This document shows, piece after piece, positions 9,090 to 26,672 of a stretch of DNA of 64,000 nucleotides. Under the pieces are notes generated by a model that was given only the letters and a program-made list of their open reading frames with translations, did no database searches and had not been told where the DNA came from. Origin of the DNA: Mucilaginibacter sp. CSA2-8R. Lineage in GTDB: Bacteria > Bacteroidota > Bacteroidia > Sphingobacteriales > Sphingobacteriaceae. How positions within the stretch are numbered: position 1 is the stretch's first letter; each line of letters starts with the position of its first letter. The DNA lies in assembly GCF_038806765.1 (NCBI RefSeq), contig NZ_CP152389.1, forward strand, positions 4,898,001 to 4,962,000. Direction: 5' to 3'. The translations under genes were made by a program, and so were the position numbers.

Positions 9090-9104
9090 ATCAGGCAATT
9101 ATTA

Positions 9105-10970
9105 CTAATGAGCTTTTACTATCACAATGTTGGGCTTAGCCGGCGCTTTCATGCCGTCGCCCAAAAAGAAACTGGTGTAAGGCGGCTGATTATAACCCAC
9201 GTTTTGCCAGGCAATACTCAGCCTGTATTGCGGATCATGCATCAGGGTACGAAACCGGTAATTAGTTGGGATGGTAGTGGTATAAATGCGCAGGCTTTGG
9301 TTATCAGCGGCGCGCAATATGACCTCTTCGCGCCAGTCGCCAAACAAATCGGCGCTTAAGGTGGGGGTAGATTTGGTTCCGTTGTTAGACTGATAACCAG
9401 TTGCTACTAATAAATTACTGAGCGTGCTATTCTGATAGTCCCATTTCATTACGCGGTTCCCATCTAACAGTTCGCGCAATAAATCGCCGTCCCACCAAAT
9501 GCCAAAGTTAATAGTGCGCGGAGCTGCACCTATGCTTTCGCCTTTGGCCGAGCGCAAACCTTCAATATTACCCCAGTTTTCAACTCCCGGATAGCGCGGG
9601 TCAATATCAGCCGACATGCCACGGCCTACATCTTCGTCAGGAGCGCCTTTCCATAAAATTTCGCCGGTACGGGCATCAAAAAATGCGATACCCGGCCCCT
9701 TGGTATTATCTTCTATCTCGTGCACGCCAAAAGCTTCCAAACCCGGCCGCGAGGGGTCTAAATCGCTCACATGAACAGCATCACCATGGCGCAGGCCAGT
9801 GGTGTACAAGCCCTTACCATTATCGTCTACACACATAGAACCGTAAACAATTTCGTCTTTACCATCGGCATCCACATCTGCTACCGTTAAATTGTGGTTA
9901 CCCATGCCCGAGTATGTATTGGTTCCGTCTTTGGTGTCAAAAACCCATCTCGAAGAGAGCTTTCCACCACGCCAGTCCCAGGCAGCAAGCACTGTACGGC
10001 CGTAATACCCCCGGCACATCACAACACTCGGATGTACCCCATCCAGGTAAGCTACGCAAGCCAAAAAACGGTCTACCCGGTTACCTGTATTATCATTGCC
10101 GCCGTTGCCACCCCGGCCCCCCCATTCTCCTATATTACCGCGGCCTGGCAGGTAATTGGTAGTAGCCATGGCTGCGCCTGTACGACCGTTAAATATCGTA
10201 AAATATTCCGGCCCATCTAATATGCGACCTTGGGCATTGGCATAGCGCTTTGTTGAATCGCCAATAACTTTGCCTTTACCGTCTATAGTCCCGTCGGCTG
10301 TTTTGCAGGCAATTTCGGCTATACCGTCACCATCCAGGTCGTACACCATAAATTGTGTGTAGTGGGCTCCCTCGCGTATGTTATGACCTAAGTTTATTTC
10401 CCAGAGTAAAGTACCATCCAGCTTGTAAGCCTGCAGTATAGGCGGATCGGTTAACCCGGCCGAGGAGTTATCACGGCCGCGGCCGGTTTGATGAAGTATA
10501 ATTTCATACTGCCCATCGCCATCCAGGTCGCCCACACTGGCATCATTAGGGATGTATCCTTTAGGATTTTTAAGCGGTAACTGCCAGTACTGCTGTGCGG
10601 GTGAATGGGCCTGCAAGGCATAGCTCTTGCTGGCATCTCCTTCTTTGGTGTTAATTACCGCTTTTACAAACCAAGTATTAGTTACCGTACTGTCTACACG
10701 CTCTTCGGTATAACTGGTGGCCTCGGCTAAGGGCGCAGCATTTACTTTTACAGCAGGCTTATTTCCTGCCTTATGGTATAAATTATAAGCTATATTATCT
10801 GGTTCGGTGCCCAGCATACGCCAGCTTAAAAAAACCTTGCCGGCACCTTGATTTACTGCTACCAAGCCTCGGTCAAGGTATTCCATTTGCCGTTGGGCAA
10901 CAGCCGTTACTCCCAAACCTAAAAATGTAATAAGCGCTAAAGCACGCGCTTTAGGTAAAAGTTGATTCAT
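9105..10970 (-). CDS. PL11 rhamnogalacturonan lyase (copy 2)
   Basis: A 621-residue exported lyase (signal peptide ending GVTAVAQ, then RQMEYLDRGLVAVNQ). It has the same propeller with calcium loops DLDGDGQYE, DLDGDGIAE and DVDADGKDE, and the same C-terminus pattern (HDPQYRLSIAWQN) as copy 1. It differs in the segment after the first calcium loop, with HQTGRGRDNSSAG where copy 1 has KWEPGNARNPPQTG. This matches my memory of two PL11 subtypes, so the pair may split endo- and exo-type activity. That division is inferred. It is the first gene of the lyase pair, 193 bases after the SusCD operon and past its terminator. Confidence 0.93.
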   Translation of the reverse strand: MNQLLPKARALALITFLGLGVTAVAQRQMEYLDRGLVAVNQGAGKVFLSWRMLGTEPDNIAYNLYHKAGNKPAVKVNAAPLAEATSYTEERVDSTVTNTWFVKAVINTKEGDASKSYALQAHSPAQQYWQLPLKNPKGYIPNDASVGDLDGDGQYEIILHQTGRGRDNSSAGLTDPPILQAYKLDGTLLWEINLGHNIREGAHYTQFMVYDLDGDGIAEIACKTADGTIDGKGKVIGDSTKRYANAQGRILDGPEYFTIFNGRTGAAMATTNYLPGRGNIGEWGGRGGNGGNDNTGNRVDRFLACVAYLDGVHPSVVMCRGYYGRTVLAAWDWRGGKLSSRWVFDTKDGTNTYSGMGNHNLTVADVDADGKDEIVYGSMCVDDNGKGLYTTGLRHGDAVHVSDLDPSRPGLEAFGVHEIEDNTKGPGIAFFDARTGEILWKGAPDEDVGRGMSADIDPRYPGVENWGNIEGLRSAKGESIGAAPRTINFGIWWDGDLLRELLDGNRVMKWDYQNSTLSNLLVATGYQSNNGTKSTPTLSADLFGDWREEVILRAADNQSLRIYTTTIPTNYRFRTLMHDPQYRLSIAWQNVGYNQPPYTSFFLGDGMKAPAKPNIVIVKAH

Positions 10971-11100: not shown

Positions 11101-11143
11101 AAAAAATAAGCAGGCAGCTCTAACGAATCAGAACTGCCTGCTT
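11101..11143 (-). terminator. Terminator of the fasciclin/SusCD operon
   Basis: On the minus strand a 10-bp stem (11134-11143 with 11108-11117, core GCAGGCAG/CTGCCTGC) extends inward with three more pairs and is followed by a T run (A run at 11101-11106 on plus). It lies 20 bases beyond the SusD stop and separates the operon from the PL11 pair. Confidence 0.85.
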
Positions 11144-11163
11144 ACTAACTCTTGACTGCCCCC

Positions 11164-12954
11164 TTATAATTTAAATGGCAAGTATAAACCGTTTGAAGAT
11201 AGCAGTTTTGTACGTGCTGTTGATGCAGCAGGATTATTATCACTCAGTAATTTTTGATATACTTTTTCGGCTACGTAATTGGGATCATTACGGCGTAAGG
11301 CTACACGCAGTAAATCGCCCCAACGCTGACCCTCATATGCCAGTTCTAATGCATCTTCGTTGATGATGGCGTCTTCCATTCCGGTAATATCATTATTAGT
11401 ATAAAGGGTAGCCGGCAAAGCAACCAGGTTAGCACGGGTGCGCGTGCCTACCTGCCTGGACCACTGCCCGCGGTAATAAGGTGTTTCGCCCTGGCGTGCA
11501 TCGTAATTATATGGGTATGGCTGATCGGTTTGCTGTATGTTAGTTACATCAGCAGGAACCGAACTTGGCTGATACAAGGGCCTGATACCTACGTTAGTTA
11601 AAGCATAGGCCACCTTCACCTTTCCGTCGCGATTAGCAGCTTCGGCTAAATGCAGGTTAAGGGTACCAGCACGATATAATAACCAACGCCCTTGCTTTTG
11701 CAAAATGTTGATAGACATTAAAGAACCTTCGGTCAGGTAATTATACAGGTACTTCATAATAACCGGTTGTCCGTTTATGTTGCGTACAGTAACGCGCCCG
11801 CGCTGATCGAACGGGAAGCCATTGCTTTGCACCTGCGAATTCCAATTGCGCATGGCAAGCTTTGATGCGGTTAACAGGTAACGCCCACCCTGGTTAGAAA
11901 ACAAATCAATAAAAGGATTAGTCGGCTGGAAGTTCTTGTCGAAAGGTAAAGACCATATCCATTCGCCGCTGGCCGGGGTATCTTGTGTGGTACGGCCAAA
12001 AATAGAACGCCAGCCGGTACTATTTACATCACTAATGGAGGTAGAGTCGGAGTTACGGCCGCCATCATAACGAATAACTACGTCGTTATTATTACCATCA
12101 GCATAACAGGCTTTGTATTGCCAGTAATAAAGATTGTTGGCAAAATCAAAATTACGACCACCTTGCTCTGCCAAATACTTGTATTGCTCTGCGGCCTTAG
12201 TGTAGTTACCTCTCCATAAATATAAGTCGCCGAGCAGAGCGCGCTTGTTAATAAAAAACAAGTTGGTCGGATAGCCATCAACCGTTGTATTAAGCGATGT
12301 ACTGCTTGAGCCGGTAACCGCTGTGGTGGCTGTATACACATCCAGATAACCGTTAGCCATAGTGGCAATCAGTTTATCAAGCATATCATTAAATGACAGG
12401 CGTGGAAATTTACTCTCATCTTTCAATGCCTCAACAGTTTCTAAAGCATCGGTAACATAAGGTACCGAACCAAAATGCATACCTAACTGCAGGTATAGCC
12501 AGGCGCGCACAGCGCTAACATCTGCGTAAAGCTGGTTATATTCGTCGCGGCGCATTTTTGCCTGACCAATCATGATGTCGAAATTTTTCAAAGCATCATT
12601 ACAGTTCAGAATAATACGGTAAAATGGCTTTGGATCTGCCCATGGGTTATTGGCTGATACCGTATGCGTGCTTATTTCGCGCAGGTATTGATCGGCGTTA
12701 GCCGTTGGGCTCATCAAATCGCCACGCAACTCATTAAGTACAATAAAGCGATCGGCAATACCCATAATCTGCCCGTAAATGCCGATAACTGCAGCATTGG
12801 CATCCGAAACGTTTCGATAATTATTGCTAATATCTACCTGGTCTTGCGGTGGTACATCCAAAATTTTCTTGCACGAAAACGTCAGCATGAGGCAAGCCAG
12901 CAGTACTATTTTATTTATAAAGTTTAATGAAAGTTTTTTCATATTAATAATCAT
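11164..12954 (-). CDS. SusD/RagB family glycan-binding lipoprotein (pair B)
   Basis: 596 residues from ATG 12954; an internal ATG at 12942 (MKKLSLNFINK) may be the real start. The lipobox is LTFSC, giving a cysteine-anchored surface lipoprotein. The SusD fold shows as N-terminal TPR-like helices (DVSAVRAWLYLQLGMHFGSV) and the C-terminal signature ELAYEGQRWGDLLRVALRRN. SusD proteins cap the SusC transporter and bind oligosaccharides at the cell surface. It begins 11 bases after the SusC-B stop and is the last gene of the operon. Confidence 0.94.
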   Translation of the reverse strand: MIINMKKLSLNFINKIVLLACLMLTFSCKKILDVPPQDQVDISNNYRNVSDANAAVIGIYGQIMGIADRFIVLNELRGDLMSPTANADQYLREISTHTVSANNPWADPKPFYRIILNCNDALKNFDIMIGQAKMRRDEYNQLYADVSAVRAWLYLQLGMHFGSVPYVTDALETVEALKDESKFPRLSFNDMLDKLIATMANGYLDVYTATTAVTGSSSTSLNTTVDGYPTNLFFINKRALLGDLYLWRGNYTKAAEQYKYLAEQGGRNFDFANNLYYWQYKACYADGNNNDVVIRYDGGRNSDSTSISDVNSTGWRSIFGRTTQDTPASGEWIWSLPFDKNFQPTNPFIDLFSNQGGRYLLTASKLAMRNWNSQVQSNGFPFDQRGRVTVRNINGQPVIMKYLYNYLTEGSLMSINILQKQGRWLLYRAGTLNLHLAEAANRDGKVKVAYALTNVGIRPLYQPSSVPADVTNIQQTDQPYPYNYDARQGETPYYRGQWSRQVGTRTRANLVALPATLYTNNDITGMEDAIINEDALELAYEGQRWGDLLRVALRRNDPNYVAEKVYQKLLSDNNPAASTARTKLLSSNGLYLPFKL

Positions 12955-12965
12955 CAGCTTATGAA

Positions 12966-15900
12966 TTATATACCTATGCGAACGCCTAACTGTACAGTTT
13001 TAAACTGAGGTTCGAGGGTAGTATCAATACCATTAGTTAGCAAATTGGTTGTAGCCGCAAACTCCGGATCATACCCCAGGTATTTAGTGAAGGTGAGCAG
13101 ATTGTTGCCCGTTGCATAGATTTTAAAATACTTAAATGCTTTATACTTAAATGGCACATCGTAAGTAACAGATACGGTACGCAAACGCATATACGAACCA
13201 TTTTCAATCCAGCGGTCTGAGAATGATGAGTTACCCGACGGATCACCGTATGAAGCTCTTGGTATACTGGTTACCTGTCCGTCAGCACGCCAGCGGTTAA
13301 TGATAGCCAACGACTGGTTTTGCGGTCCGCTTGCCGATTCGAGTTGACGACGGGTGTAATTGTACAGGCTGTTTCCTTTAGTAAAAGTAACCAAGGCATT
13401 TAAGCTAAGGCGTTTGTAAGTAAAGCCGGTAGTAATACCGCCTGTAAAATCAGGGTTAGGGTTGCCAATTACCTGTTTATCATTATCATCTATAATTTTG
13501 TCGCCGTTCACATCAATAAACCTTACATCACCACCTTGCTGTGCTACTAAGTTACCCGCTGCGTTACGGTAAGACATACCGGCAGCAGCCGCTTCGGCGT
13601 TAGAGGTATAAACCCCATTTGTTTTATAGCCGTAAAACACACCAGCAGGCATACCTACCTGGGTTAATATGGTAGCACCGGCATAGCTGGTTTGCATGCT
13701 GTTGCCAGGCAGTTTAATTATTTTATTGCGGTAAGTGGCAATGTTGAAACCTAAGTCCCACTTAAAATCGGCATTGTTAATGATGCGGCCATTTACCGAT
13801 AGCTCTACACCGCTGGTTTGCATTCCACCGTTATTGGTAACTGCATATACTAAGCCTCCGGCACTGGATGTAGGCTCTTGGGTAATCATTTTGGTGGTGG
13901 TGTTTTTGAAATAATCGGCAGTAATACTTAAGCGCTCTTGTAAAAACGAGGCATCAAAGCCAAAATCGAGCTTTTTGTTAACCTCCCATTGTAACTGAGG
14001 ATTGCCAAAGTTTGCCCTTACCAAACCTTGAAGGCCCAACAAATTTTGTGATATATAATACTGACGTGCAGCATAGTTACCAATGTCGTCGTTACCCACC
14101 CAACCATAGCTTGCTCTAAGTTTTAACAACTCAAAGAAGTTAAGATCAGACATGAATTTTTCTGACGATACGATCCATCCTGCAGACACTGATGGCAACA
14201 AAGCCATTTTTACGCCACCCAGCGAAACACCGTCTGCGGCTTGATTGCCAAAACGCGAAGAGGCATCGAGTGCAACGTTTAAACCTATAATATACTTATT
14301 GTATAACTGGTAGTTTGCATTTAAATAGTTGTTAAACCAACGATACTTACCAATATCACCACCGGTACGGCGCAAAGCCGGGTCGCCGGTACCTACTGAT
14401 ATCAGCTGGTCTATTGCCGAATTATAGCCGAAATTGAAGTTATCATTGGTATTATATTGTGCAAACCTTGTCCCTAAGCTTACATTAAGCGCATGTATAC
14501 GGTTAAAGATTCGGTTGTAGTTTACCCGCGTGTCATTATACAAATTAAACAAGCGCTGTACGCGGCTGCCTAAACGGCTATCAATAATAGCGGTAGCAGT
14601 AGTATCGTTAGCCACGCCTACTCGCGGTATAAAATAGCTTTCGCGCACCTTATCAGCAGTTACACCGATAAGTGTTTGTGCCGAGAAGTATCTGGAAAAC
14701 TGGTACCTGAAATTAAAGTTACCGAAGAACCGATAATTCCGGTTCATTTCCTGTGAGTTCAGGGTCAGTGCCTCTGGGTTGCTAAAACCAAAGATATCTA
14801 CATCAGCTAAGTTGGGCGACTCTACACCCTGGCTGTTTACCTGACGCACTCTGAGCAAAGGTGATTTGATCAGGCTGGTATAGAGCGGACTTGTTTTAGG
14901 ACTTAAGCCCTGGTCGCGCAGTTTTTGCTCGTTGTAATTAAACGACAGGTTAGCGGTTACCGTAAACTTCGGACTGATTTTTAAATCAGCGTTAAACCTG
15001 GTATTAAACCGGGCTACGTCTGTTAAACGGGTGATGCCTTTATTGTCGCCGTAACCCAGCGATAACACATATCGTGCAATATCGTCACCGCCCGATACCC
15101 GCAGGTTATAATTTTGATTAAAACCATTTTTGAAAGCCTGCTTTTGCCAGTCGGTATCATTATGATAAGTATTGTAATCTGCATTAGACGGGCTATCGTT
15201 AAAATAAGGCATTGCAGCAATCTGGCTGGCGTTTAACCCGCTGGTGCGCATTACGTCTGACAAGTAGGTACGGTAATCGCCGGCACGCATTAAAGGCAAA
15301 AGTGAGCCCGAGTTGATGTAATTGTAACCGCTGTAAATACCTAAGTCTATCTTAGTTGCCAAATCGGGGTTACTGTTAGTAGTTAATAAAATTACACCGT
15401 TACCACCTTTGGTTCCGTAAGCTGCGGCAGCTGCATCTTTAAGTATAGTAATGTTTTGCACATCGTGTAAGTCAATGTTACTGTACGGGTTGTGCACGTG
15501 GCCACCAATGATAGAGTTACCGAAGTTATTGGTGTCGTAAATCATCCCATCAACCACTAATAGTGGCGCGTTGCTACCGTTTAAAGAGTTAAATCCCCGT
15601 AAAAACAAACTGGCACCGGCATTAGGTGTGCCCGACCGGCGTATCACATTTAAACCAGCAACTTTACCCTGTAAATAAGTATCAGGCAGTTCCAGGCTGG
15701 TTGGTTCCCAGGCGCCTAAAGTATTTACGCTGTTTACGGCGTTTGTTGTTTGATTTAATGGCGTTGGCTTAAACGGAGTATTAGCCACATCATATACCGA
15801 ATTATAATTATCTTCAAATAGTAATACGTCCGGTATTTTAGTACGGCCTTTTAAAGCTACTTCTTTAGGTTGATAGCCTTGCCCGCCAACAATTAAAAGC

Positions 15901-16193
15901 ACATCGTAGTTAGGAACGTTAATTGTAAAGGCACCCTTTTCGTCGGTAATGGCAGCACTGTATTGCGGAACGCTTACGTTAACACCAGATACCGGTTTGC
16001 CGGTAGCAGCATCTTTAATGATACCACTTATTTTGCTACCCTTAGCCCGGTTAAGTGAGTCGGTTTTATAACGGGCAATACTATCGGCCATTTGCCTGGC
16101 CGTTAGGGTATCCGTTTCCTGCGCTTTGGCTTTGATACCACACAACAGGCAAAAAAACAAGATTAAACCAATTGATTTAGTAAAAATTTGCAT
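12966..16193 (-). CDS. SusC/RagA TonB-linked outer-membrane transporter (pair B)
   Basis: 1075 residues with signal peptide MQIFTKSIGLILFFCLLCG. The order is a carboxypeptidase-regulatory-like beta domain (SGIIKDAATGKPVSGVNVSV, residues about 55-125), the TonB plug (SLFLRGFNSLNG and LLVVDGMIYD, about 150-270), then a large beta-barrel ending in QFKTVQLGVRIGI. Between signal peptide and beta domain it has an extra short segment (TLTARQMADSIARYKTDS). It forms a transport complex with the adjacent SusD for glycan fragments. It follows a fasciclin gene by 18 bases. Family assignment is very secure; the ligand is inferred from the nearby PL11 lyases. Confidence 0.95.
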   Translation of the reverse strand: MQIFTKSIGLILFFCLLCGIKAKAQETDTLTARQMADSIARYKTDSLNRAKGSKISGIIKDAATGKPVSGVNVSVPQYSAAITDEKGAFTINVPNYDVLLIVGGQGYQPKEVALKGRTKIPDVLLFEDNYNSVYDVANTPFKPTPLNQTTNAVNSVNTLGAWEPTSLELPDTYLQGKVAGLNVIRRSGTPNAGASLFLRGFNSLNGSNAPLLVVDGMIYDTNNFGNSIIGGHVHNPYSNIDLHDVQNITILKDAAAAAYGTKGGNGVILLTTNSNPDLATKIDLGIYSGYNYINSGSLLPLMRAGDYRTYLSDVMRTSGLNASQIAAMPYFNDSPSNADYNTYHNDTDWQKQAFKNGFNQNYNLRVSGGDDIARYVLSLGYGDNKGITRLTDVARFNTRFNADLKISPKFTVTANLSFNYNEQKLRDQGLSPKTSPLYTSLIKSPLLRVRQVNSQGVESPNLADVDIFGFSNPEALTLNSQEMNRNYRFFGNFNFRYQFSRYFSAQTLIGVTADKVRESYFIPRVGVANDTTATAIIDSRLGSRVQRLFNLYNDTRVNYNRIFNRIHALNVSLGTRFAQYNTNDNFNFGYNSAIDQLISVGTGDPALRRTGGDIGKYRWFNNYLNANYQLYNKYIIGLNVALDASSRFGNQAADGVSLGGVKMALLPSVSAGWIVSSEKFMSDLNFFELLKLRASYGWVGNDDIGNYAARQYYISQNLLGLQGLVRANFGNPQLQWEVNKKLDFGFDASFLQERLSITADYFKNTTTKMITQEPTSSAGGLVYAVTNNGGMQTSGVELSVNGRIINNADFKWDLGFNIATYRNKIIKLPGNSMQTSYAGATILTQVGMPAGVFYGYKTNGVYTSNAEAAAAGMSYRNAAGNLVAQQGGDVRFIDVNGDKIIDDNDKQVIGNPNPDFTGGITTGFTYKRLSLNALVTFTKGNSLYNYTRRQLESASGPQNQSLAIINRWRADGQVTSIPRASYGDPSGNSSFSDRWIENGSYMRLRTVSVTYDVPFKYKAFKYFKIYATGNNLLTFTKYLGYDPEFAATTNLLTNGIDTTLEPQFKTVQLGVRIGI

Positions 16194-16211
16194 AGTAAGG
16201 TTGTCTGGTTG

Positions 16212-17756
16212 TTATAGTATGGGTATCAGTTTTACGTAATCCAGTGTAAGTGCATTCAGGTTGGTAGTACTAACATTAGCTCCCTGCAAATACATATTAA
16301 CCGAACCATATTTGGCTACCGTTAAAGTGCCGCCTGTTGAATTGATGTTGGTATTACTACCCGTTGCGCCGGTTAATGTTACTTCTGAGTAATTAACAGG
16401 CAGCGTTGCCGAGCTGGTAGTAGTATAGGGGAAGGTAACTGTAAACGGCAAGCTCACTGTGCCGGCACTAACTATTGGAGTTATTGGTCCGAACGCCAGA
16501 CGTTGCTGCACTGTTGGCCGCGGGTCTGAGTAAGCAATATCATTAATAGCGCGCCATACCACCCGGTACTGGCAGGTGTTTAGATTGCTTAATTTATAAG
16601 CTACGAAGTAAGAGGCCGGCAGGTTTGCACCCGATACCAGCAAGTCTGAAAACGGCACACCAACGTTATCCACTTTGGTGCGGAAAGCGATATTACCCCG
16701 CGTATCTGTACGCTGAAAAAACGAGGGCTTTTCGCCTTGGATAGTGATGGTCGGAATTTTATCAGCTAAGGCAAAGTTTACACTGTTCATCACGTAAACA
16801 ATACCGTTACTGGCCTGATAGGTTTGTACAATAGCGCTTTTATTAATAGGCACTCTCACGCCGTTTACCGAGGTTAAAAATGCCGGCAAATCAGCTGGTT
16901 GCACTACTCCTCTTACCGCTACATCCTTAAGCACATTAAATGCAGAAAGGATATTCATGGTGGTATCGGTTGAGTTAGTAACTGTAGCAAAAAAGCGGCT
17001 TACTTTATTACGCTCAGCATTATAAGCATCATCAGTTAATACAATATAAGTATACAAACTATCTTCGTGAGCCAGATTAGCTACCCGGTTAAAATATTTG
17101 TTTTGCGAAACTACACCTGTACCAGCTACCAATATAGGCCTACCCGTTGCCGGATCAATGCTTGACACGGTAGCTTTAGAGGTATCTACAAAAGTTGTAT
17201 CCTGGCGCTGCAGGTAAGCCTTTTGCAGTGTACCTACTGTAGTAAGGCTTTTTACAAAATCCCAAATAGTTAATTTAGGGGTAAGCGGCTTATTAATAAC
17301 GTGTAAAACCCCGTTGGCCACATATTGGTTAGCGGCTGTAATACTGGCATCTTCTACCGTAGTAGGTGTAAATGTTACGTTTTTGCCATTAAGGGTGCGT
17401 ATCCGTGCCGAGGTATTAATAGAAGATGTTAAGTATGTTTGGTTTGCAATATGGTTAGCTACAAATAAACGCAGTTTAGCGGTGTCGGCTACGGTTGCGG
17501 CGTCAATGCCCTGCAGCGCCTGGTTATCAGGTGCCCAAACAGTATAGGTTTTAGACGCTGCTAAAATTTTATCATATCCTATTTTAGTTAAGTAACCGGC
17601 AAAAGTGCTTAGGTTACTGTTCTGCTGTATTTGCTGCATCAGGTTCTTATCCAATTGCTGGTCGGCTATGGCAGTACGGTCATCCCATTGCTTTTTGCAG
17701 GCCGATAACGCCACTGTGAAAAGCAGCAACACCAACAAGGGTCTTTTAATATTCAT
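16212..17756 (-). CDS. Fasciclin (FAS1) domain lipoprotein with C-terminal beta-sandwich, third of operon
   Basis: A 514-residue lipoprotein with lipobox LSAC and a charged start to the mature protein (CKKQWDD) of the kind seen in surface-exported Bacteroidota lipoproteins. The first FAS1 domain spans about residues 37-165 (TYTVWAPDNQALQGID, VANGVLHVINKPL). A second, degenerate FAS1 domain spans about 170-330 and ends ASNGIVYVMNSVNFALADK. From about 365 to the end the sequence is beta-rich and finishes LNALTLDYVKLIPIL, reminiscent of the last strand of CBM6-type domains. It is placed directly before SusC-B, so a role in surface glycan capture is plausible. That role is inferred, not known. 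Confidence 0.85.
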   Translation of the reverse strand: MNIKRPLLVLLLFTVALSACKKQWDDRTAIADQQLDKNLMQQIQQNSNLSTFAGYLTKIGYDKILAASKTYTVWAPDNQALQGIDAATVADTAKLRLFVANHIANQTYLTSSINTSARIRTLNGKNVTFTPTTVEDASITAANQYVANGVLHVINKPLTPKLTIWDFVKSLTTVGTLQKAYLQRQDTTFVDTSKATVSSIDPATGRPILVAGTGVVSQNKYFNRVANLAHEDSLYTYIVLTDDAYNAERNKVSRFFATVTNSTDTTMNILSAFNVLKDVAVRGVVQPADLPAFLTSVNGVRVPINKSAIVQTYQASNGIVYVMNSVNFALADKIPTITIQGEKPSFFQRTDTRGNIAFRTKVDNVGVPFSDLLVSGANLPASYFVAYKLSNLNTCQYRVVWRAINDIAYSDPRPTVQQRLAFGPITPIVSAGTVSLPFTVTFPYTTTSSATLPVNYSEVTLTGATGSNTNINSTGGTLTVAKYGSVNMYLQGANVSTTNLNALTLDYVKLIPIL

Positions 17757-17799
17757 TATAGAGCAATCAGTTTAAGTTTATAAATATGTTTAGTGTTGC

Positions 17800-19524
17800 T
17801 TAATATACCAGCGAACCGTCTTTAGCAAACTTTGGAAATATCTGGCTGGCCATGTCAATTGGTCTAAACTCAATCAGGTCCAAATTGAGCACATGATTGG
17901 CACTGCTTGGCGCAGTAGCAATAAAGCGTATGGTATGCCTGTCGGTAGTTGGTATGTTTATTACGCCTAATAACCTGCCCACGTGGCCATTATTAGGGCC
18001 GCCAGTAGCCGTTTGTGCGGTATAGCGTTTAAAGCCTTTAGCCTCCAACTGCGCATCTGTTTCGGTATCGGTTACAGTATTGTTTTGATTAAATGTATTG
18101 GAGAATATGGCCTGCCCGTCAAAGGTTACCCCTACAGTACCACCGTTACTTTGCTTATAATCAACCCATACTTTATAACGGCCTTTAACCAGCAACGGCG
18201 TTCTGAATTCTATAAAAGCTACGCCTGCTGAAACCCTGAACCGACCACCACACAGCAAGAAATCGTTTCCGAAATATTGTGAATTATCAGATAAAGGCGG
18301 TACGGTATAAGTAATTACGTTACCAGATAAATTAGTGGTTACCGGAAAATCTACATCAATCAACTGATCTGGTGTGAAAGGGGCAGTTTTACCTGGTACA
18401 CGGTACAGGCCTGGCGTACGTCTGATTTCGGGTTGATCGGCTACATCAAAATAAACCGGTGTAGGCTTGCGAACTTTAATGGCATAATTTGCTTTTACTG
18501 AATGCAAAACGCCATTAGAGGCCGAGTTATCGCTCAATGTACGATCAAGCACAACACCAGGCTCCAGCACACCATTAAAGGTTATATTATTTAGTAAAAC
18601 ATCCTGTCCGCTTAACTCACTGGTGGTTACCTCTAAAGGCGCTAAGGTGGTGTGCGACGAAGAAGCTACAATATCAGACAAATAAGATAACTCCGGAAAA
18701 ACGCGGTAAGCAACGTAAAGATACAAGCTATCCTGAGGGTTTTTAGGATTGCCGGTGGTGGAGTACCTCCTTTTTAATGCATCAAAATTAGCAAAGCCTG
18801 CCGCGTTGAATACAGCGTTGGTTTGCGCAATAAGCGTTAAATATTTGCGGCTTGTATTAGTTTGGGCTGATGCCGCTACGTTGAGCGAATCATAAAAACC
18901 AGTAGCTTTTAAAGCTTCGGTAAATATAGAATACTTAGTATCCTGCTCTACCATTTGCGCCAGTGTTAAAGGCGCCGGACTTAATACGTTATCAATTACA
19001 TGAATAATACCATTACCTACACGTGTGTTACTTTTTACCAGGTTTGCCTGTTTGTTAATAACAATGTTGGTTACCCCATTATTATTAGCAGCCCCTGTTA
19101 TTAAAAACTGCCCGTTTGTAGTAGGCGAGCGCATTTTACCATCTGTAAACAGCTGCGAGCTGATGGTATCGGCAATCAGGCTGATACTGACAATTTTTTT
19201 AGCTGTGGCTTCATCAATGGCATCAACACTGGCTTTGTTATTTGCTTTTAAATAAGCATTTACACCGGCATTGTTGGCTGCAAAAAGGGTGTAAGCACCG
19301 TAGGTATTTAAAAAGCTGGCATAACCTGCCTTATCTACAATTTGCTTAAACAGCGAAAACTGATCGGCATTTTGATCAAGATAGCTGTAAATATTTACGG
19401 TACTGGTGGTTGAGTAGTTGATGTTTTGCCTGCGGCAGCTACTCATTGTTACTGCTAAAACGCCTAAGGCTATCACCATAGCCGGCATAATCCTATTCAT
19501 TATATTTTTCATCGCTTTCACCAT
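17800..19524 (-). CDS. Fasciclin (FAS1) domain lipoprotein with CBM6-like C-terminus, second of operon
   Basis: A 574-residue lipoprotein (lipobox MSSC after a hydrophobic stretch; several in-frame ATGs exist near the start, and the first, 19524, is used). FAS1 domain 1 covers about residues 35-165 (GAYTLFAANNAGVNAYL, NGIIHVIDNVLSP) and domain 2 about 170-355 (NGVLHSVKANYAIKV). The C-terminal 150 residues contain GRYKVWVDYKQSNGG, VTFDGQ, HTIRFIATAP and LNLDLIEFRPI. This order of strands resembles carbohydrate-binding modules of the CBM6/35 type. It starts 11 bases after SusD-A and precedes a second fasciclin gene by 43 bases. The carbohydrate-binding reading is my inference. Confidence 0.85.
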   Translation of the reverse strand: MVKAMKNIMNRIMPAMVIALGVLAVTMSSCRRQNINYSTTSTVNIYSYLDQNADQFSLFKQIVDKAGYASFLNTYGAYTLFAANNAGVNAYLKANNKASVDAIDEATAKKIVSISLIADTISSQLFTDGKMRSPTTNGQFLITGAANNNGVTNIVINKQANLVKSNTRVGNGIIHVIDNVLSPAPLTLAQMVEQDTKYSIFTEALKATGFYDSLNVAASAQTNTSRKYLTLIAQTNAVFNAAGFANFDALKRRYSTTGNPKNPQDSLYLYVAYRVFPELSYLSDIVASSSHTTLAPLEVTTSELSGQDVLLNNITFNGVLEPGVVLDRTLSDNSASNGVLHSVKANYAIKVRKPTPVYFDVADQPEIRRTPGLYRVPGKTAPFTPDQLIDVDFPVTTNLSGNVITYTVPPLSDNSQYFGNDFLLCGGRFRVSAGVAFIEFRTPLLVKGRYKVWVDYKQSNGGTVGVTFDGQAIFSNTFNQNNTVTDTETDAQLEAKGFKRYTAQTATGGPNNGHVGRLLGVINIPTTDRHTIRFIATAPSSANHVLNLDLIEFRPIDMASQIFPKFAKDGSLVY

Positions 19525-19535
19525 TAAGATTTTTA

Positions 19536-21050
19536 CTATTTATAGAATGGATTTTGTATGAGGTTAGGATCGGTTTGGATCTCGTACTGGTAGATGGGGA
19601 AATACAAACTATTAGGGTCTTTAAGTTTATTTAGTGCCGATTGCTGCACAGCCGACGGTACAACACGCACCGCTGCCGAATTTAAAATATCCAGCCTGGC
19701 AAAATTGTTGCGTTTGGCGTTACGGAGTAAATCATACCAGCGCTTACCTTCGTAAGCCAGTTCGCGTGCGCGTTCGGCCAATACGTAATCAGTTAATCCG
19801 CTAACATTTTCGGGGCCTGGAGTTTGCGCAGACGCCGGTAAAGCATTAGCCCGGGTACGGATCGTATTAATGATGTTTAATGTTTCAGTACCACGGCCGG
19901 AGTTTGCACACGCTTCTGCCTTCATCAGCAAAACATCAGCATAACGGTAAACAATCCAATGCGCGTAAGAAACATCGGGCGAGCGCACGGTGGTACTGTT
20001 GATGCCTACGTATTTATAAATGGTCTGATCGCTGGTTCTAACGGCAGCGTCAATCCCCCTGATGTCTTTGTTGTTATCATCAATTGGGTCAACAGTAAAA
20101 AACTCGTCAATCACGATGGGGTTAGCCATGTACCTTTTGTTTACCACACCAAACATGGAGTAAAAGGGATTCAATAGTTGGGGGTCATACTGTAACTCAA
20201 AAATCCCCTCGTTAGAGTTACCCGTTACAAACAATGCATTAAACCAAGCATTGGCATTATTACCGGCCACCAATCCATACCGGCCCGAGCCGATAATTTT
20301 ATCGCAGGCGGCTATGCAATCGGCATAATTGTCCATCCATAAATACACATCGGCTTGAAGAGCATTTACGGTAAACTTGGTAATGCGGCCTTTATTTGAA
20401 GCATTGTCGCCATAGCTTGCGGTAGCATAGCTTTCGGCCAGTTTTAAATCGGCAACAATTTGCTTTAATAAATCTGCCTGTGGTGTTTTTGCCAACTGTA
20501 CCAATTCATTATCTGAAGAGGTAGATTTTAACTTAAGCGGCGCGTCACCAAAGCTGCGTACCAAATAAAAATACATTAATGAACGTAAGGTTAGGGCCTC
20601 GCCCAAATAAGCGTTTAATTGCTCCTGCGTTAAAGTATTGTCCACATCCCTTACTCCCGGACCAAAATCAAGCACTGTATTACACAGGTTAATTACACGG
20701 TAGATGTTACGCCAGTCGGCCACTGTATTTGACGGCAGTATATTTGCGTTTATCACGTTCAATTCATCCGGAGTTGCGCCAATACCCGGCATAACCATAT
20801 CACCCCGTATCTCTCCCCAGATAAAAAAAGATTCGGCAGGTGCAGGCCTGTTATTTGGAACCGCTCCGAACGGAATCAGCATCGAATTGTAGCAGCCAAT
20901 CACGGCCGCCTGCAATTGCTCTTTAGTTTTCCAAAACTTGTCACGCGTTACACCGTCCTGAGGACTAAGCTCCAGGTACTTTTTACAAGAAGTAACCGAA
21001 AGGGTTAAAACAGTAAATAGTAGGGTTTTTAAAAGTCTATGTTTAAACAT
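19536..21050 (-). CDS. SusD/RagB family glycan-binding lipoprotein (pair A)
   Basis: 504 residues with lipobox VTSC and the typical start of the mature protein, CKKYLELSPQDGVTRDKFWK. Helical TPR-like segments (EALTLRSLMYFYLVRSFGDA) and the C-terminal ARELAYEGKRWYDLLRNAKR signature identify the SusD fold. It is shorter than the pair B SusD (596), so the two pairs are unlikely to be simple recent duplicates. It is encoded 17 bases after SusC-A and should cap that transporter at the outer-membrane surface. Confidence 0.94.
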   Translation of the reverse strand: MFKHRLLKTLLFTVLTLSVTSCKKYLELSPQDGVTRDKFWKTKEQLQAAVIGCYNSMLIPFGAVPNNRPAPAESFFIWGEIRGDMVMPGIGATPDELNVINANILPSNTVADWRNIYRVINLCNTVLDFGPGVRDVDNTLTQEQLNAYLGEALTLRSLMYFYLVRSFGDAPLKLKSTSSDNELVQLAKTPQADLLKQIVADLKLAESYATASYGDNASNKGRITKFTVNALQADVYLWMDNYADCIAACDKIIGSGRYGLVAGNNANAWFNALFVTGNSNEGIFELQYDPQLLNPFYSMFGVVNKRYMANPIVIDEFFTVDPIDDNNKDIRGIDAAVRTSDQTIYKYVGINSTTVRSPDVSYAHWIVYRYADVLLMKAEACANSGRGTETLNIINTIRTRANALPASAQTPGPENVSGLTDYVLAERARELAYEGKRWYDLLRNAKRNNFARLDILNSAAVRVVPSAVQQSALNKLKDPNSLYFPIYQYEIQTDPNLIQNPFYK

Positions 21051-21067
21051 AACAATATGTTTTAATA

Positions 21068-24000
21068 TTAAAATGATGCGGTTAAACCTAAAGTAACTTG
21101 CTTAAGCGGCGGGGTGGTAGATACGTCACGGGCGCTCTGGAAGATCCCCTCGCCTCTTGTTGCTACCTCCGGATCCTGACCGGTATATTTAGTTAATGTG
21201 AGCAGGTTTTCGGCAGTTACATATAAGCTCAGGTTTTTAGTTTTTAAGCGGCGAGCCAGTGCTTTATCAAAAGTGTAACGGGCAGTAATAGAACGGAAAC
21301 GCAAAAACGTGCCGCTTTCAACATACCGGTCTGAGGCTAACCAGTTATAACCTGTTCTGTATAAAGCGCGTGGTATGTCGGTTTCGTCGCCAGGAGCGCG
21401 CCATCTTCTTAACACCGCGGTACTTTGATTGTTAAAGCTATACATAGATGTGGTGTTCATTTTAGTGTCGTTAATAATCTGGCCACCTGTACGGAAGTTG
21501 AAGTAAGCCTGGATTTTGAAATTACCCTTAATAGTGAACGTTGGGCCAAAACCGCCTACAAATTTGGGGTTACCATTACCTAAATAAACTACGTCCTGAT
21601 AGTTGATGTTACCATCGTGGTTAATATCCTCATAAACAGCATCGCCTGGCTGGAAAAGATAATCGGTAGCAGGATAGTTAAAGCGCATTTGAACCGGCGA
21701 ACCATTAGGGCTCAAAATTTTGTTACCATTAGCATCACGCGCTATAGTAGCATCAGCATCTTTATAAACGCCTTTGAACTTATAGCCGTAAAAAGAACCT
21801 AAGGGGTTATTGATTTGTAACAATGACAGATACTGACCGTTTTGAGTAACATTTCCGCTTGAGGTTGGGTAGTAAGGCGAAACCGAACGTAATGAGTTGT
21901 AATTACTCGAAATGTTAAAGTTAAAGTCGAAAATGAAATCTTTTGATTTGTAAGGCGTACTAAACACACTGAACTCAAAACCCTGGTTATCTAAAGTGCC
22001 TACGTTTAACAGCACCGAGCTGTAACCATTAAATGATGAAATTGCCAGGTTAGGGGTAAGCAAATCTTTGGTACGGTTACGGTAAACACCAAAATCAATA
22101 TTTAAACGGTTATTAAACATAATAATGTTTACACCGGCATCCACACCCTGCAACGTTTCCCACTTAAGGTTATCTAACTGTATGTTGTTAGAATATAAAC
22201 CTGACAAGCCTAAGTAATTACTGGATGTAGGCGTGTAAGTATTATAAAAAATATACGGATAACCAGCTGTGTTAGAACCCGGTGTACCACCACTTACACC
22301 ATAACCACCACGTAAGCTTAACTCATCAAGCCATTTAGTGGTTTTTTTCATGAACGGTTCGCCCGAAACACGCCAGCGGCCTGATACTGACGGAAACAAG
22401 CCGTAACGATTGTTACTGCCAAAAATGGAATTTCCGTCGCCACGTAAGGCCACATTCAGGATGTAACGGTCTAAGTATTTGTACTGACCGTTAATTAAAC
22501 CTGCCAGAGTGCGTACCTGATCCATGGGCGATGTAATACTGCCTATATTTACACGGCCCGCAACAGAGGCATCCTGTAACTCATCAGATGCAGTATTAGT
22601 AATTACCTGCCCTTGGGTAAACGACTTAACATCGCTGGTTTGTAATGATACTAAACCGGTGAAAGAATGCTTTTCATTAAGACGCGGGGTGTATACAAAA
22701 TTGGTTTTACTGGTAACCGCATAAGTGTCATAATCGGCATTGTACGCCCGGTTAACTGTACTTTCGGTAAATGGCCTGCCTGTAGCAACTTGTGGTAAAA
22801 AGCGTGTTTGGCGGCTGTTGTTTATATCAAACTGTACATCAGTGGTAGCACTCAGTACGCTCGGGATAATATTATACTGAATGTAAAAGTGAGGGATGAT
22901 ACGATCACTAACCAAATTATTTTGGGCAGCATTAGCCATAGCCACCGGATTGTAAACCTGCCCCCCTAAAGTGTACTGGCCTTGTATATTTGATGCCGGC
23001 GAGAAATAATTAGGAGTTAATACTCCATACTCATTATACTCGTAAATACTGGTGTTAGGCGCTCTTAAAGCAGCAACCGACCGAACGCCGTCTGCCCCTG
23101 TACCATTACTGGAATTAGCGAAATTGTAATCGGTATTACTATGCGCGTATGATACGAACGTGGTAAAACGTATTTTATCAGATACGATATAATCGAGGTT
23201 TAATCGTGTATTTAAACGATTTAGACCGGTACCAATGGTAGTACCTACCTGTGAGTTATAACCTACCGAAGCAAAGTAGCGGGCTTTATCACCACCACCT
23301 GATATGGATAGGTTATTATCAACGATGTTACCAGTACGCGATATGGCTTTTACCCAATCGGTATTTTGGCTGTAGTTTTTGTAGTAATAATAGTTTAACG
23401 GATCATATTCAAACTCCTTGGTGGTAAAGGTATTTAAAGGTGCACCGTTTACATTCATCACCATTTCCGGAATTAATGTAGAATACTGATCTCCTGATAA
23501 AAGCGGGATGCCGGTTGGCTGCTCGGTGACTGTACCTTTAAAGGTGTACGAAATAGTCGGTGCACCTCTCGATCCGCGTTTGGTGTTGATAATTAACACT
23601 CCGTTAGCTGCGCGTGCACCCCAAACGGCCGTAGCTGCTGCATCTTTCAAAATGGAGATATCACGGATATCAGATGGTGCGATACTTAACAAATCCGCAT
23701 ATTGCGTATTATCAGCCGTAGAAAAGTTGAAACCTGCCGGAACGGTAGTTTCGAAAGGCACGCCGTCAACTACAATCAGAGGATTGGTGGCACCATTAAT
23801 AGAACTGGTACCCCTGATTTTGATGGACATACCTGCACCCGGATCGCCCGAATTGGAAATAATGTCTACCCCTGGTAAACGACCTTGAATAGCCTGGTCA
23901 ATAGTGGTAGCCTGCAACTCTTCAACATCCTTTGCGTTTAAAGTTACTGTCGACGTGGTTTGGTCGCGTTTATCAATAAACAAACCGCTGCCATTGTTTA

Positions 24001-24373
24001 CTTGCTGCCGGCCGGTTACGGTTACCGCAGTAAGTTCGTTACGGTTAGATTCTAACGTGGTATTGAATACGCGGCGGGTGCCAATGTCAAGCGTTTTAGG
24101 TTTATAACCAATAATCGAAATAACTATTTTGTTATTAACATCACTAACCTTGATGGCAAAATTACCATCTATATCGGTAGCGGCACCGGTAATGGTACGC
24201 TTGTCTTTGTCTTGCTCTACAACAGTGGCCCCAATTACAGGGAGCTTATCTTTAGAATCAATGACACGCCCTTTGATCAGGATTTTTTCGCCCGTTTGTG
24301 CCTGTGCATTGATTGCCCAACAGGACAGCACAAACACAACTGTGAAAGTAATTAGGTTAAAAGTTCTTCTCAT
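21068..24373 (-). CDS. SusC/RagA TonB-linked outer-membrane transporter (pair A)
   Basis: 1101 residues with a signal peptide ending INAQAQ. A carboxypeptidase-regulatory-like domain (IKGRVIDSKDKLPVIGATVV) is followed by an ELTAVTVTGRQQ segment that may act as TonB box, the plug (SIKIRGTSSINGATNPLIVV) and the 22-strand-type barrel ending KQVTLGLTASF. It is the second gene of the operon, 15 bases after the four-repeat fasciclin gene, and pairs with the next gene (SusD-A). Its plug and barrel sequences are clearly different from SusC-B, which suggests that the two complexes take up different oligosaccharides. Confidence 0.95.
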   Translation of the reverse strand: MRRTFNLITFTVVFVLSCWAINAQAQTGEKILIKGRVIDSKDKLPVIGATVVEQDKDKRTITGAATDIDGNFAIKVSDVNNKIVISIIGYKPKTLDIGTRRVFNTTLESNRNELTAVTVTGRQQVNNGSGLFIDKRDQTTSTVTLNAKDVEELQATTIDQAIQGRLPGVDIISNSGDPGAGMSIKIRGTSSINGATNPLIVVDGVPFETTVPAGFNFSTADNTQYADLLSIAPSDIRDISILKDAAATAVWGARAANGVLIINTKRGSRGAPTISYTFKGTVTEQPTGIPLLSGDQYSTLIPEMVMNVNGAPLNTFTTKEFEYDPLNYYYYKNYSQNTDWVKAISRTGNIVDNNLSISGGGDKARYFASVGYNSQVGTTIGTGLNRLNTRLNLDYIVSDKIRFTTFVSYAHSNTDYNFANSSNGTGADGVRSVAALRAPNTSIYEYNEYGVLTPNYFSPASNIQGQYTLGGQVYNPVAMANAAQNNLVSDRIIPHFYIQYNIIPSVLSATTDVQFDINNSRQTRFLPQVATGRPFTESTVNRAYNADYDTYAVTSKTNFVYTPRLNEKHSFTGLVSLQTSDVKSFTQGQVITNTASDELQDASVAGRVNIGSITSPMDQVRTLAGLINGQYKYLDRYILNVALRGDGNSIFGSNNRYGLFPSVSGRWRVSGEPFMKKTTKWLDELSLRGGYGVSGGTPGSNTAGYPYIFYNTYTPTSSNYLGLSGLYSNNIQLDNLKWETLQGVDAGVNIIMFNNRLNIDFGVYRNRTKDLLTPNLAISSFNGYSSVLLNVGTLDNQGFEFSVFSTPYKSKDFIFDFNFNISSNYNSLRSVSPYYPTSSGNVTQNGQYLSLLQINNPLGSFYGYKFKGVYKDADATIARDANGNKILSPNGSPVQMRFNYPATDYLFQPGDAVYEDINHDGNINYQDVVYLGNGNPKFVGGFGPTFTIKGNFKIQAYFNFRTGGQIINDTKMNTTSMYSFNNQSTAVLRRWRAPGDETDIPRALYRTGYNWLASDRYVESGTFLRFRSITARYTFDKALARRLKTKNLSLYVTAENLLTLTKYTGQDPEVATRGEGIFQSARDVSTTPPLKQVTLGLTASF

Positions 24374-24388
24374 GTTAAGCCCTAATCT

Positions 24389-26614
24389 TTAAAAATTGTA
24401 TCTTAAGTAGTTATCAATTTGGTGAAACAGCGCCCGGGTACCCAAGTAGTTGCTGTTTGCGGCTATAGTAGTGGCCGAACGTCCGAGATAATCGCGCACG
24501 GTAATGCTGCCAGGCTGGTTGGTGATGGACAGGTTAACATCATCGCCATTAGCATTTTTCAATAAAGTTGGGAACGAACTGCCATTAGGGCTTTTTTTGC
24601 CGTCGGTGGCTATGGCAATGCCATTCAAAATATGCGTTAGAATAAAGCGGGCAACCTTTGCTTTATCGTCTATAGAAGACGGATTGTAATTGGGCACACC
24701 CGTACTTACTGTACCTGGTAAAATACCATCCTTAACAGCCTGTTGTATGGCCGCTTTTGTAGGAATGAAAATGGTATAATTTGCGCCTAACTGTAAACCT
24801 ATAATTTCCAGGTTGGTAGGGTTATAAACAGTAGAATTTATTAAGTATTGATAAAAATCATAATAAGGCGATGTGGCTGTAGTCGCGTTTTTACCAATTT
24901 GCGAAGCCAGTGTGCCTACCGGGTAATCTAAGGCACCACTGCCTAAAAAGTAAACCTTACCATTGCTATAGTTGCGCGAGCCGGTTACACTAACAACCTG
25001 ATTTTTCTCGACGTTACCACCAGCAAAAACCGTATTGTTATTATAACGCACATATTCGCCGCCGTAAGACTCAACAACACCTTGTCCGGTTAAGCTGTTT
25101 AATTCATTGTCAGGGGTTTGTACTACATGCAGATTTACAATACGTTGTAGTAGGTCGCGCGGGTTAGCACCGGAACTGGTTGAACCATTTACAGTAAGTG
25201 TAAATTGTGCAGTGTTGGTATTGTAATCATAACCTAAAGCCCTGAAAGTAGCATCGGGCACCATAAACACTGTAAATTTCAGATTCGGGTTAGCCACTAC
25301 TGTTTTGAGGTTTAAATCCAGTATGCGGGTCATGATAGAATAGGCAGGATCGAGATAAGCACGGGCATAAACGGTGCTGAACACGTTAGCTGCCTGTACC
25401 TGGTTAGTACCGTAAAACACGCCGTTACTACAAAACTTTTTGTCGACCACGTTGCTATTGACGTTAAACCTTGCAGGCTCACCCAAAGTGTTTGACGCCG
25501 AAGAAAACTTTGTTGGCCACACCGTTGAAGGGAACATGTGGGCATTTAAAAAATCGGCAACAATGTTGTTGGGTAGCTTATCAACAGAGCCGTAAAATTC
25601 CAAAAGCACATTGTTCAGGTATTGCGTTAATGCAGTATTATTAGGCGCAAATAACGAGTAACCATCAGACTGACCGTCATTATCTTCTACTTTCCTAAAA
25701 TTTTCATTCCCTAAAGCGTAAGCTAACAAGCTAGAATACTGCTTAATATAAACCTTGTTATTTTTACCTGTTATAATGCTGTATCTGCTCTGGGCATCAC
25801 TGTTTTGCAGGTAAGTGACCATGAATTTTTCGAACAGGTCTCTAAACTGGCTGTACTGGCTGTTACTGGCTAACTGCTGCTCAATGTTGGGTAACGGCAG
25901 TACTACACGGTCAATTTCGTGTATAACACCATTTTCGGCAACAATGTCTTTGTTTACCACGGAGGCATCAACCACGTTAAAGCCGCTGTAAGTGCTCGAC
26001 GGAAAGAAAAAGTTGTAATCTGTAGCCGACAAACTTTTAGTCGACATATAAGGAGCGAAAAAATAAGGGATGTACTTATTGTTGTTGTCGCCAAATATAA
26101 AGCTGGTTCCGTTGTTAGATGCATTACGGTTTGATGAAAGCAATACGGTAGATGCTCCATCAGGGCCGTTACCCGTATAAAAGCCGTCATAATAAGCCGT
26201 ACGGCGTTTGTAAGCATTATTAGTTATCCAGCCTTGAGGCGACTGGTAATCGGCCAGGTGATTAGTTTGAAAAGCATTGAAAACCAGACAATAAGTAACA
26301 ATCTTGCGCGCTGTTACAGAATCCAGATTAGCTAAACTTACATTATTTTCAGAAAAATACTTTTGAAACGCAGCATCATTAGGCGCAAAAAACGTCCAGT
26401 AACCGGCTGCACTCAAAGTGCCTTTATAACCAGACTTATCAATAACTGCCAGTAAACTGGTAAAGTTCCCCTTCGATTGCAGCACCTGGTAAATAGGTGG
26501 CTGTAAGTTATCAGGGCGGCCGTAATATTCATCAAAAGCTTGCTTGCGGCAACTGCTCAAGAAAATTAAGGCACTAAAAAGTACACATAAATTTTTTAGT
26601 AATTTATACATCAT
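24389..26614 (-). CDS. Large fasciclin (FAS1) repeat lipoprotein, first gene of operon
   Basis: A 741-residue lipoprotein with lipobox LSSC (CRKQAFDEYYG). I count four FAS1-like repeats. One starts near IYQVLQSKGNFTSLLAVIDK with GYWTFFAPNDAAFQKYF; a second near IEQQLASNSQYSQFRDLFEK with GYSLFAPNNTALTQYL; a third near IMTRILDLNLKTVV with FTVFMVPDATFRALGY; a fourth near FYQYLINSTVYNPTNL with YTIFIPTKAAIQQAV. Unlike the other two fasciclin genes of the operon it has no obvious C-terminal beta-sandwich. It leads the operon, preceded by an 812-base divergent intergenic region. A function as surface adhesin or glycan-binding subunit is inferred. Confidence 0.85.
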   Translation of the reverse strand: MMYKLLKNLCVLFSALIFLSSCRKQAFDEYYGRPDNLQPPIYQVLQSKGNFTSLLAVIDKSGYKGTLSAAGYWTFFAPNDAAFQKYFSENNVSLANLDSVTARKIVTYCLVFNAFQTNHLADYQSPQGWITNNAYKRRTAYYDGFYTGNGPDGASTVLLSSNRNASNNGTSFIFGDNNNKYIPYFFAPYMSTKSLSATDYNFFFPSSTYSGFNVVDASVVNKDIVAENGVIHEIDRVVLPLPNIEQQLASNSQYSQFRDLFEKFMVTYLQNSDAQSRYSIITGKNNKVYIKQYSSLLAYALGNENFRKVEDNDGQSDGYSLFAPNNTALTQYLNNVLLEFYGSVDKLPNNIVADFLNAHMFPSTVWPTKFSSASNTLGEPARFNVNSNVVDKKFCSNGVFYGTNQVQAANVFSTVYARAYLDPAYSIMTRILDLNLKTVVANPNLKFTVFMVPDATFRALGYDYNTNTAQFTLTVNGSTSSGANPRDLLQRIVNLHVVQTPDNELNSLTGQGVVESYGGEYVRYNNNTVFAGGNVEKNQVVSVTGSRNYSNGKVYFLGSGALDYPVGTLASQIGKNATTATSPYYDFYQYLINSTVYNPTNLEIIGLQLGANYTIFIPTKAAIQQAVKDGILPGTVSTGVPNYNPSSIDDKAKVARFILTHILNGIAIATDGKKSPNGSSFPTLLKNANGDDVNLSITNQPGSITVRDYLGRSATTIAANSNYLGTRALFHQIDNYLRYNF

Positions 26615-26650: not shown

Positions 26651-26672
26651 AAAGCGGCAGAACAGCCGCTTT
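26651..26672 (-). promoter_or_regulatory. Hairpin in the leader of the fasciclin/SusCD operon
   Basis: An 8-bp perfect stem around a six-base loop, 36 bases before the first start codon of the operon. There is no T run on the minus side, so it is not a simple terminator. It may affect mRNA stability or translation. Functional role unknown. Confidence 0.35.

Follow-up and report, generated by a model that had tools for sequence, protein, structure and literature searches.

To our knowledge, SusCD complexes combine one SusC with one SusD and are assembled as homodimers, and neither SusE nor SusF of the starch Sus carries a FAS1 domain. The closest working model for the locus presented here is the levan utilisome of Bacteroides thetaiotaomicron. 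The levan and dextran utilisomes join one homodimeric SusCD pair to surface lipoproteins, namely a surface glycoside hydrolase (GH) and a surface glycan-binding protein (SGBP) with two N-terminal spacers and a C-terminal binding domain; in the levan SGBP these are two Ig-like domains followed by a levan-binding domain (PMC7618045). The starch Sus (SusCDEF) has two extra binding lipoproteins beside a single SusCD pair (PMC7618045). Here, we describe a set of seven adjacent genes, encoding three FAS1 (fasciclin) proteins and two distinct SusC-SusD pairs, in a stretch of 64,000 nucleotides (nt) of Mucilaginibacter sp. CSA2-8R (contig NZ_CP152389.1, positions 4,898,001 to 4,962,000; hereafter the window). 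As a complete unit, the set is found in several orders of the phylum; its two SusC proteins are, judged by their tree, two old and separate lineages that stay paired, and the second of them lacks the TonB box at its customary position, where box-like patterns are no more frequent than by chance.

The seven open reading frames (ORFs) run on the minus strand from 26614 down to 11164 and are labelled, in gene order, FA (FAS1), CA (SusC), DA (SusD), FB and FC (FAS1), CB (SusC) and DB (SusD). In the feature lines below, lengths are in amino acids (aa), model confidence is the mean predicted local distance difference test (pLDDT), CBM stands for carbohydrate-binding module and rmsd for root-mean-square deviation.

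24389..26614, minus strand: FA, first gene, FAS1 lipoprotein of 741 aa (Pfam Fasciclin, 1.9e-33, five stretches)
21068..24373, minus strand: CA, first SusC, 1101 aa (Pfam and NCBIfam matches)
24011..24034, minus strand: residues 114-121 of CA, a TonB-box-like segment that follows the CarbopepD_reg domain and precedes the plug
19536..21050, minus strand: DA, first SusD, 504 aa (SusD_RagB, 116.8 bits)
17800..19524, minus strand: FB, lipoprotein of 574 aa, modelled as a FAS1 pair and then a C-terminal CBM35-like module (mean pLDDT 90.6)
17857..18468, minus strand: predicted CBM35-like module of FB, residues 353-556 (7ehg_C, Z 13.8, rmsd 2.3, 131/134 aligned)
16212..17756, minus strand: FC, lipoprotein of 514 aa, modelled as a FAS1 pair and then a C-terminal CBM6-like module (mean pLDDT 90.6)
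16218..16751, minus strand: predicted CBM6-like module of FC, residues about 336-513 (2cdp_C, Z 12.4, rmsd 2.6, 125/127 aligned)
12966..16193, minus strand: CB, second SusC, 1075 aa (Pfam and NCBIfam matches)
15771..15818, minus strand: residues 126-141 of CB, the position of the TonB box in other SusC
11164..12954, minus strand: DB, second SusD, 596 aa, weak profile match (SusD_RagB, 30.9 bits, cut-off 23.1)
11105..11146, minus strand: terminator-like hairpin 3' of DB, 19 pairs and a T tail

An earlier, sequence-only reading of the window had proposed this gene order, gaps of 11-43 bases, a terminator at the end of the operon and FAS1 domains in all three extra lipoproteins, and it is borne out on these points: the gaps measure, from FA to DB in turn, 15, 17, 11, 43, 18 and 11 nt, a hairpin with a T tail lies at 11146-11105, and Pfam Fasciclin is matched by FA, FB and FC with 115.7, 61.8 and 72.1 bits (cut-off 22). 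Because the gaps are tight, we infer that the seven genes are read as one transcript. Over the whole region, terminator-like sites are no more frequent than in shuffled sequence (16 vs 19.1), promoter-like sites are at chance level (39 vs 42.4), and no promoter site of the Bacteroidota type TAnnTTTG is present upstream of FA on its strand; a hairpin of 8 pairs, five of them G-C, lies at 26651-26672 (minus strand), directly 5' of FA in what is presumably the leader. As for the other components, DA and DB are the only two of the seven proteins above the Pfam SusD_RagB cut-off, both SusC carry the SusC-type plug and the CarbopepD_reg domain (with a barrel match in only one of the two) and both match NCBIfam TIGR04056 (699 and 644 bits, cut-off 368). 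None of the seven products is a SusE/F-like protein without FAS1. The cassette differs from the starch Sus by its second SusCD pair, and from the levan and dextran utilisomes by its two distinct SusCD pairs, its FAS1 spacers, its three FAS1 proteins and the lack of any enzyme among the seven genes. In the genome of the window, Pfam Fasciclin matches are found in the cassette and in two other places.

A contig scan with FB gave 238 confirmed relatives, and the best 80 of these 238 were kept, making 81 loci together with the window. All seven genes stand in this order and on one strand in 74 of the 81, which is far beyond chance, with median gaps of 9-34 nt; among the other seven loci, six touch a contig end and one (L044) has CA split in two ORFs. 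The 74 complete loci include one sequence twice (L052 and L054) and three in which end genes are shortened by contig ends (L056, L058 and L087). The two copies L052 and L054 have equal scores and lie on overlapping contigs, on opposite strands of one record, as an inverted duplication or an assembly effect would produce. Named hosts are Mucilaginibacter, Pedobacter, Chitinophaga, Pontibacter, Rufibacter, Flavobacterium, Leeuwenhoekiella and a metagenome-assembled genome (MAG) of the Prolixibacteraceae; a further cassette (L050) comes from a MAG that bears the actinobacterial name Williamsia, probably a mislabelled bin. The suggestion of the earlier reading that this may be a distinct kind of complex is strengthened to the extent that the set is a recurrent unit. 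At weaker FAS1 matches, 20 hand-picked loci gave the seven-gene order, in divergent form, in seven cases, a six-gene order without FC in four and neither in nine. In another order, that of genome G344, FA is matched in 14 of 149 genomes, and 18 of the 20 stretches fetched there by FA (31 match rows) show the seven-gene order; one of the other two is cut and the other, L223, departs from it: two of its FA-type genes flank a gene for a hybrid two-component sensor, and it is one FAS1 gene short of the usual number. Although widespread, the set is not common, since seven of 395 genomes drawn from the class have a match of more than 500 bits that spans almost all of the FB model (with three candidates per genome scored). 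Genomes G631 and G634, of another order, have seven and six FA matches, which suggests an expansion of the cassette for several glycans, and G121 has an additional FB-type gene (G121:C3:489057-490712) about 10 kb from its cassette FB on the same contig. Distance correlations (0.79-0.93 among the seven genes) were considered as proof of co-function and dropped, as linked genes correlate anyway.

The two SusC genes were followed through 151 genomes of the window's family, with five candidates scored per genome and a CA taken as canonical above 1300 bits. The family holds 33 canonical CA and 34 CB, and their pairing is obligate: CB lies 4.7-5.2 kb downstream of CA in 33 of 33 cases and CA lies upstream of CB in 33 of 34, the exception being the start of a contig with an FB fragment. 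Among divergent CA, 5 of 17 are unpaired; two of these are contig fragments, and for the other three (G016, G045 and G093) the rows used for the pairing include no partner, and G016 does hold a second SusC (L197). Of six CB-like rows at 640-690 bits, the three without a partner were taken as ordinary SusC. In a tree of 80 SusC, all CA form one clade (support 1.0) and all CB another (0.987), and the two clades branch alike: the six-gene form separates first and L191-L194 next, which leaves L188-L190 together with the canonical form. Because CA and CB make separate clades with the same branching, we take the cassette to be a single old set holding two SusC genes and not a recent doubling. In the SusD partners, a lipobox-like motif (loose pattern) is present in 74 of 74 DA and 74 of 74 DB.

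The two lineages differ in their TonB box, a difference that the sequence-only reading had not remarked, nor had it remarked the two paired lineages themselves. The TonB-box pattern was searched between the CarbopepD_reg domain and the plug, and was loosened once the alignment had been inspected. With the looser pattern, a box-like string stands at the usual site in 71 of 74 CA and, in contrast, in 3 of 74 CB, about 2.4 being expected from shuffled segments; divergent forms behave alike (CA 25/29, CB 1/29). Among comparison SusC, the pattern is found in 12 of 12 flank SusC and in 15 of the 19 nearest non-cassette relatives of CB (20 were fetched, and L245, an incomplete stretch, was left out), and the four relatives that it misses are box-like by eye. 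The first, stricter pattern gives a like contrast, with 25/74 for CA, 0/74 for CB and 11/12 for other SusC. Box-like strings occur near the mature N-terminus in 25 of 74 CB against 4.7 in shuffles, so the box may have been relocated to the N-terminus in about a third of CB. The C-terminal residue of CB, a Leu in 68 of 74, was also tried as a mark of the lineage and dropped, as the 19 nearest relatives end in Phe (10) or Leu (9).

The three FAS1 proteins are predicted lipoproteins: the lipid-type Cys is invariant in FA (Cys22, 49 sequences) and in FB (Cys30) and is present in at least 90% of FC (Cys20). Models of FB and FC, built from 61 sequences each, predict a FAS1 pair followed by a beta sandwich. 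The FB sandwich is best matched by 7ehg, titled MiXBM; CBM35 entries follow at Z of about 10, including 2w47 (Z 9.7), which was solved with delta-4,5-anhydrogalacturonic acid. For the FC sandwich, the best match is the CBM6 entry 2cdp, and BT0996-C (7zvo; Z 10.6, rmsd 2.7), a pectin-binding CBM reported to bind polygalacturonate (PMC9843283), is also listed. By model and fold comparison, FB and FC thus have the plan of an SGBP, i.e., a lipoprotein with N-terminal spacers and a C-terminal domain of glycan-binding type, with FAS1 at the spacer positions where Ig-like domains would be looked for. Since their ends are CBM35-like and CBM6-like sandwiches, FB and FC are probably surface glycan-binding lipoproteins with FAS1 in place of Ig-like spacers; it seems to be the spacer domains, and not the binding end, that FAS1 has replaced. 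The likeness to CBM35 and CBM6 modules, among them those of xanthan lyase, MiXBM and BT0996-C (PMC9843283), is one of fold, by model comparison, and the FB end has no sequence-level match to them. By Pfam and PDB profile matches, FA looks like FAS1 domains alone, the only one of the three, and its profile search matched the four-FAS1 proteins TGFBIp and periostin; these share the tandem FAS1 domains, unlike them the cassette proteins are bacterial lipoproteins tied to SusCD, two of the three with a CBM-like end. The earlier reading, which set FAS1 as a module of adhesion against glycan capture, has to be amended for FB and FC; adhesion and glycan binding were dropped as mutually exclusive alternatives once these C-terminal modules emerged.

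Relative to the window protein, mean identity reaches 0.50 and 0.52 in the FAS1 domains of FB vs 0.35 in its C-terminal module, and in FC 0.47 and 0.39 vs 0.34; for the first part of FA it is 0.55. The greater conservation of FAS1 fits a docking part joined to a variable binding end. In an independent SusCD locus (L205), SusC and SusD are followed by one lipoprotein with FAS1 and CBM96. In L200, L201, L204 and L206, FAS1 lipoproteins occur in runs of up to three; a second twin-SusCD type, guessed there from gene sizes, proved wrong on the Pfam results for L200, which has two TonB-receptor-type barrel proteins, no SusD, and DUF4397, TIG and FAS1 proteins. In this locus the FAS1 genes lie between the two barrel genes, the DUF4397 and TIG-repeat proteins are lipoproteins, and neighbours are of sigma-factor/anti-sigma size.

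The genes around the cassette bear on its substrate, and in the window they are the following.

9105..10970, minus strand: PL11 rhamnogalacturonan lyase, same strand and 193 nt past DB (Pfam)
7176..9098, minus strand: second PL11 rhamnogalacturonan lyase (Pfam)
27427..31122, plus strand: DUF4450/six-hairpin glycosidase-like protein, divergent from FA (Pfam)

L039 has a PL11 and a DUF4450 gene, placed as in the window, and in relatives the carbohydrate-active enzymes adjoining SusCD include GH28, GH106, GH88/105 and PL22. Flanking stretches of 20 canonical loci, at most 20 kb per side, were clustered with those of the window and one member per main cluster was scanned; of these 21 loci, 12 hold a GDSL esterase, 12 GH2, 10 GH28, 9 GH106, 8 PL11, 8 a hybrid two-component sensor, 7 GH88/105, 7 GH115, 6 FecR, 5 a sigma factor, 5 an FGGY kinase, 5 GH43, 4 an aldolase-dehydrogenase, 4 a LutB-type gene, 4 DUF4450, 3 PL22 and 3 GH95. 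The FGGY kinase and aldolase genes presumably fit rhamnose use. PL11 is present in 23 of 24 cassette genomes vs 10 of 127 others (Fisher p 2e-18, a value that ignores kinship among the genomes), and in 14 of the 24 it lies within 50 kb of the cassette. Taken together, the genes flanking the canonical form speak for rhamnogalacturonan I (RG-I) as its substrate.

We consider it rather probable that the seven genes together encode a single outer-membrane apparatus for taking up acidic plant glycans, here RG-I or its oligosaccharides, in which FAS1 serves as spacer or docking part, the CBM-like ends bind and CA-DA and CB-DB are kept together. The probable purpose of such a set would be the grip and uptake of pectin fragments. 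FB and FC would be exposed at the surface and catch the glycan with the CBM35-like and CBM6-like domains at their far ends, while their FAS1 pairs, as membrane-proximal spacers or docking parts, would keep them near the barrels, and FA would probably be the scaffold or docking part that joins the components physically. DA and DB would be the lids of two non-identical SusCD pairs; most of the TonB-driven import would pass through CA, and CB would assist or import via a changed TonB contact. A bolder form of this proposal, which we offer as a tentative idea and think doubtful, is an obligate mixed two-barrel importer, in which CA would be the TonB-driven gate, CB, without the usual box, would depend on CA for its work, be it as platform, second entry or regulator, and both SusCD pairs would be locked by the FAS1 proteins into one assembly that replaces the SusC homodimer; such an importer would have arisen once and then been used for several glycans.

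Several results weigh against the proposed uptake apparatus. The order tallies are conditional on FB or FA, by which the loci were fetched. The SusD trees do not mirror the SusC tree: DA follows a different branching sequence, its canonical clade has a support of 0.37, and in the six-gene form the second SusD falls outside the DB group. No CBM is named by Pfam for either FB or FC, a PDB profile search with the FB C-terminus found none (the FC C-terminus was not searched alone), and the CBM likeness rests on a predicted fold, a shared fold being no proof of binding; moreover, the second FAS1 domain of FC (0.39) is barely more conserved than its C-terminus (0.34). As to the substrate, G121 is the only one of the 24 cassette genomes without PL11, PL11 also occurs in ten genomes that lack a canonical cassette, of which three hold a divergent form, and divergent cassettes adjoin GH30, GH67, sialidase-like, sulfatase, pectinesterase, GH5-CBM6 and other genes, so the cassette design is not bound to one glycan.

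Different explanations of the same locus have to be compared with the proposed apparatus. The two SusCD pairs could be ordinary, independent transporters that each form a homodimer of their own and serve two RG-I fragments, such as backbone and side chains, the FAS1-CBM proteins being binders shared by both. Loci with several SusCD are common, extra unrelated SusCD pairs adjoin several cassettes, and CB keeps the plug, the CarbopepD_reg domain and its SusC family score; however, pairs joined by substrate alone should sometimes occur singly, whereas CA and CB are paired in 33/33 and 33/34 cases (five candidates scored per genome), the FAS1 genes remain between them and the TonB box at the usual site is lost in CB only, so that we hold this explanation to be possible and on the unlikely side. 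Somewhat unlikely, too, and in our estimation a little weaker a candidate, is that surface lipoproteins of Bacteroidota simply have FAS1 as a common spacer and that the set is an ordinary locus for pectin utilisation, without any new mechanism: FAS1 lipoproteins are also found beside other TonB receptors without SusD (L200) and stand-alone FAS1 proteins exist (L195, L196, L202 and L207), but the strict twin arrangement and the TonB-box difference would be left unexplained.

That the FAS1 proteins are adhesins, for the plant cell wall or for neighbouring cells, co-expressed with SusCD by chance, appears very improbable. FAS1 domains are known for adhesion, the closest solved relatives are TGFBIp and periostin, and in a symbiont of the Bacteroidota a FAS1 gene with high transcription has been read as adhesion (PMC10199937); the FAS1 genes of the cassette, however, lie inside the SusCD set in fixed order and count, and two of their three products end in CBM-like modules.

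No published description of the seven-gene set was found in our searches of open-licence papers. The nearest accounts are the symbiont paper mentioned above and a 2016 figure legend that labels a FAS1 gene in a cellulose/hemicellulose-like polysaccharide utilisation locus of Gramella portivictoriae; in the section concerned the gene is not discussed and the seven-gene twin arrangement is not described (PMC4891872). We file the set as a variant of the SusCD kind so far undescribed in the open-licence literature searched. If the proposed apparatus is real, many proteins named only as fasciclin domain-containing would acquire a function, and a candidate pectin uptake system would be marked. A fixed set, spread over several orders, that always combines two SusC lineages and in which one of the two lacks the usual TonB box would offer a natural case for studying why SusC dimerises and how TonB drives it.

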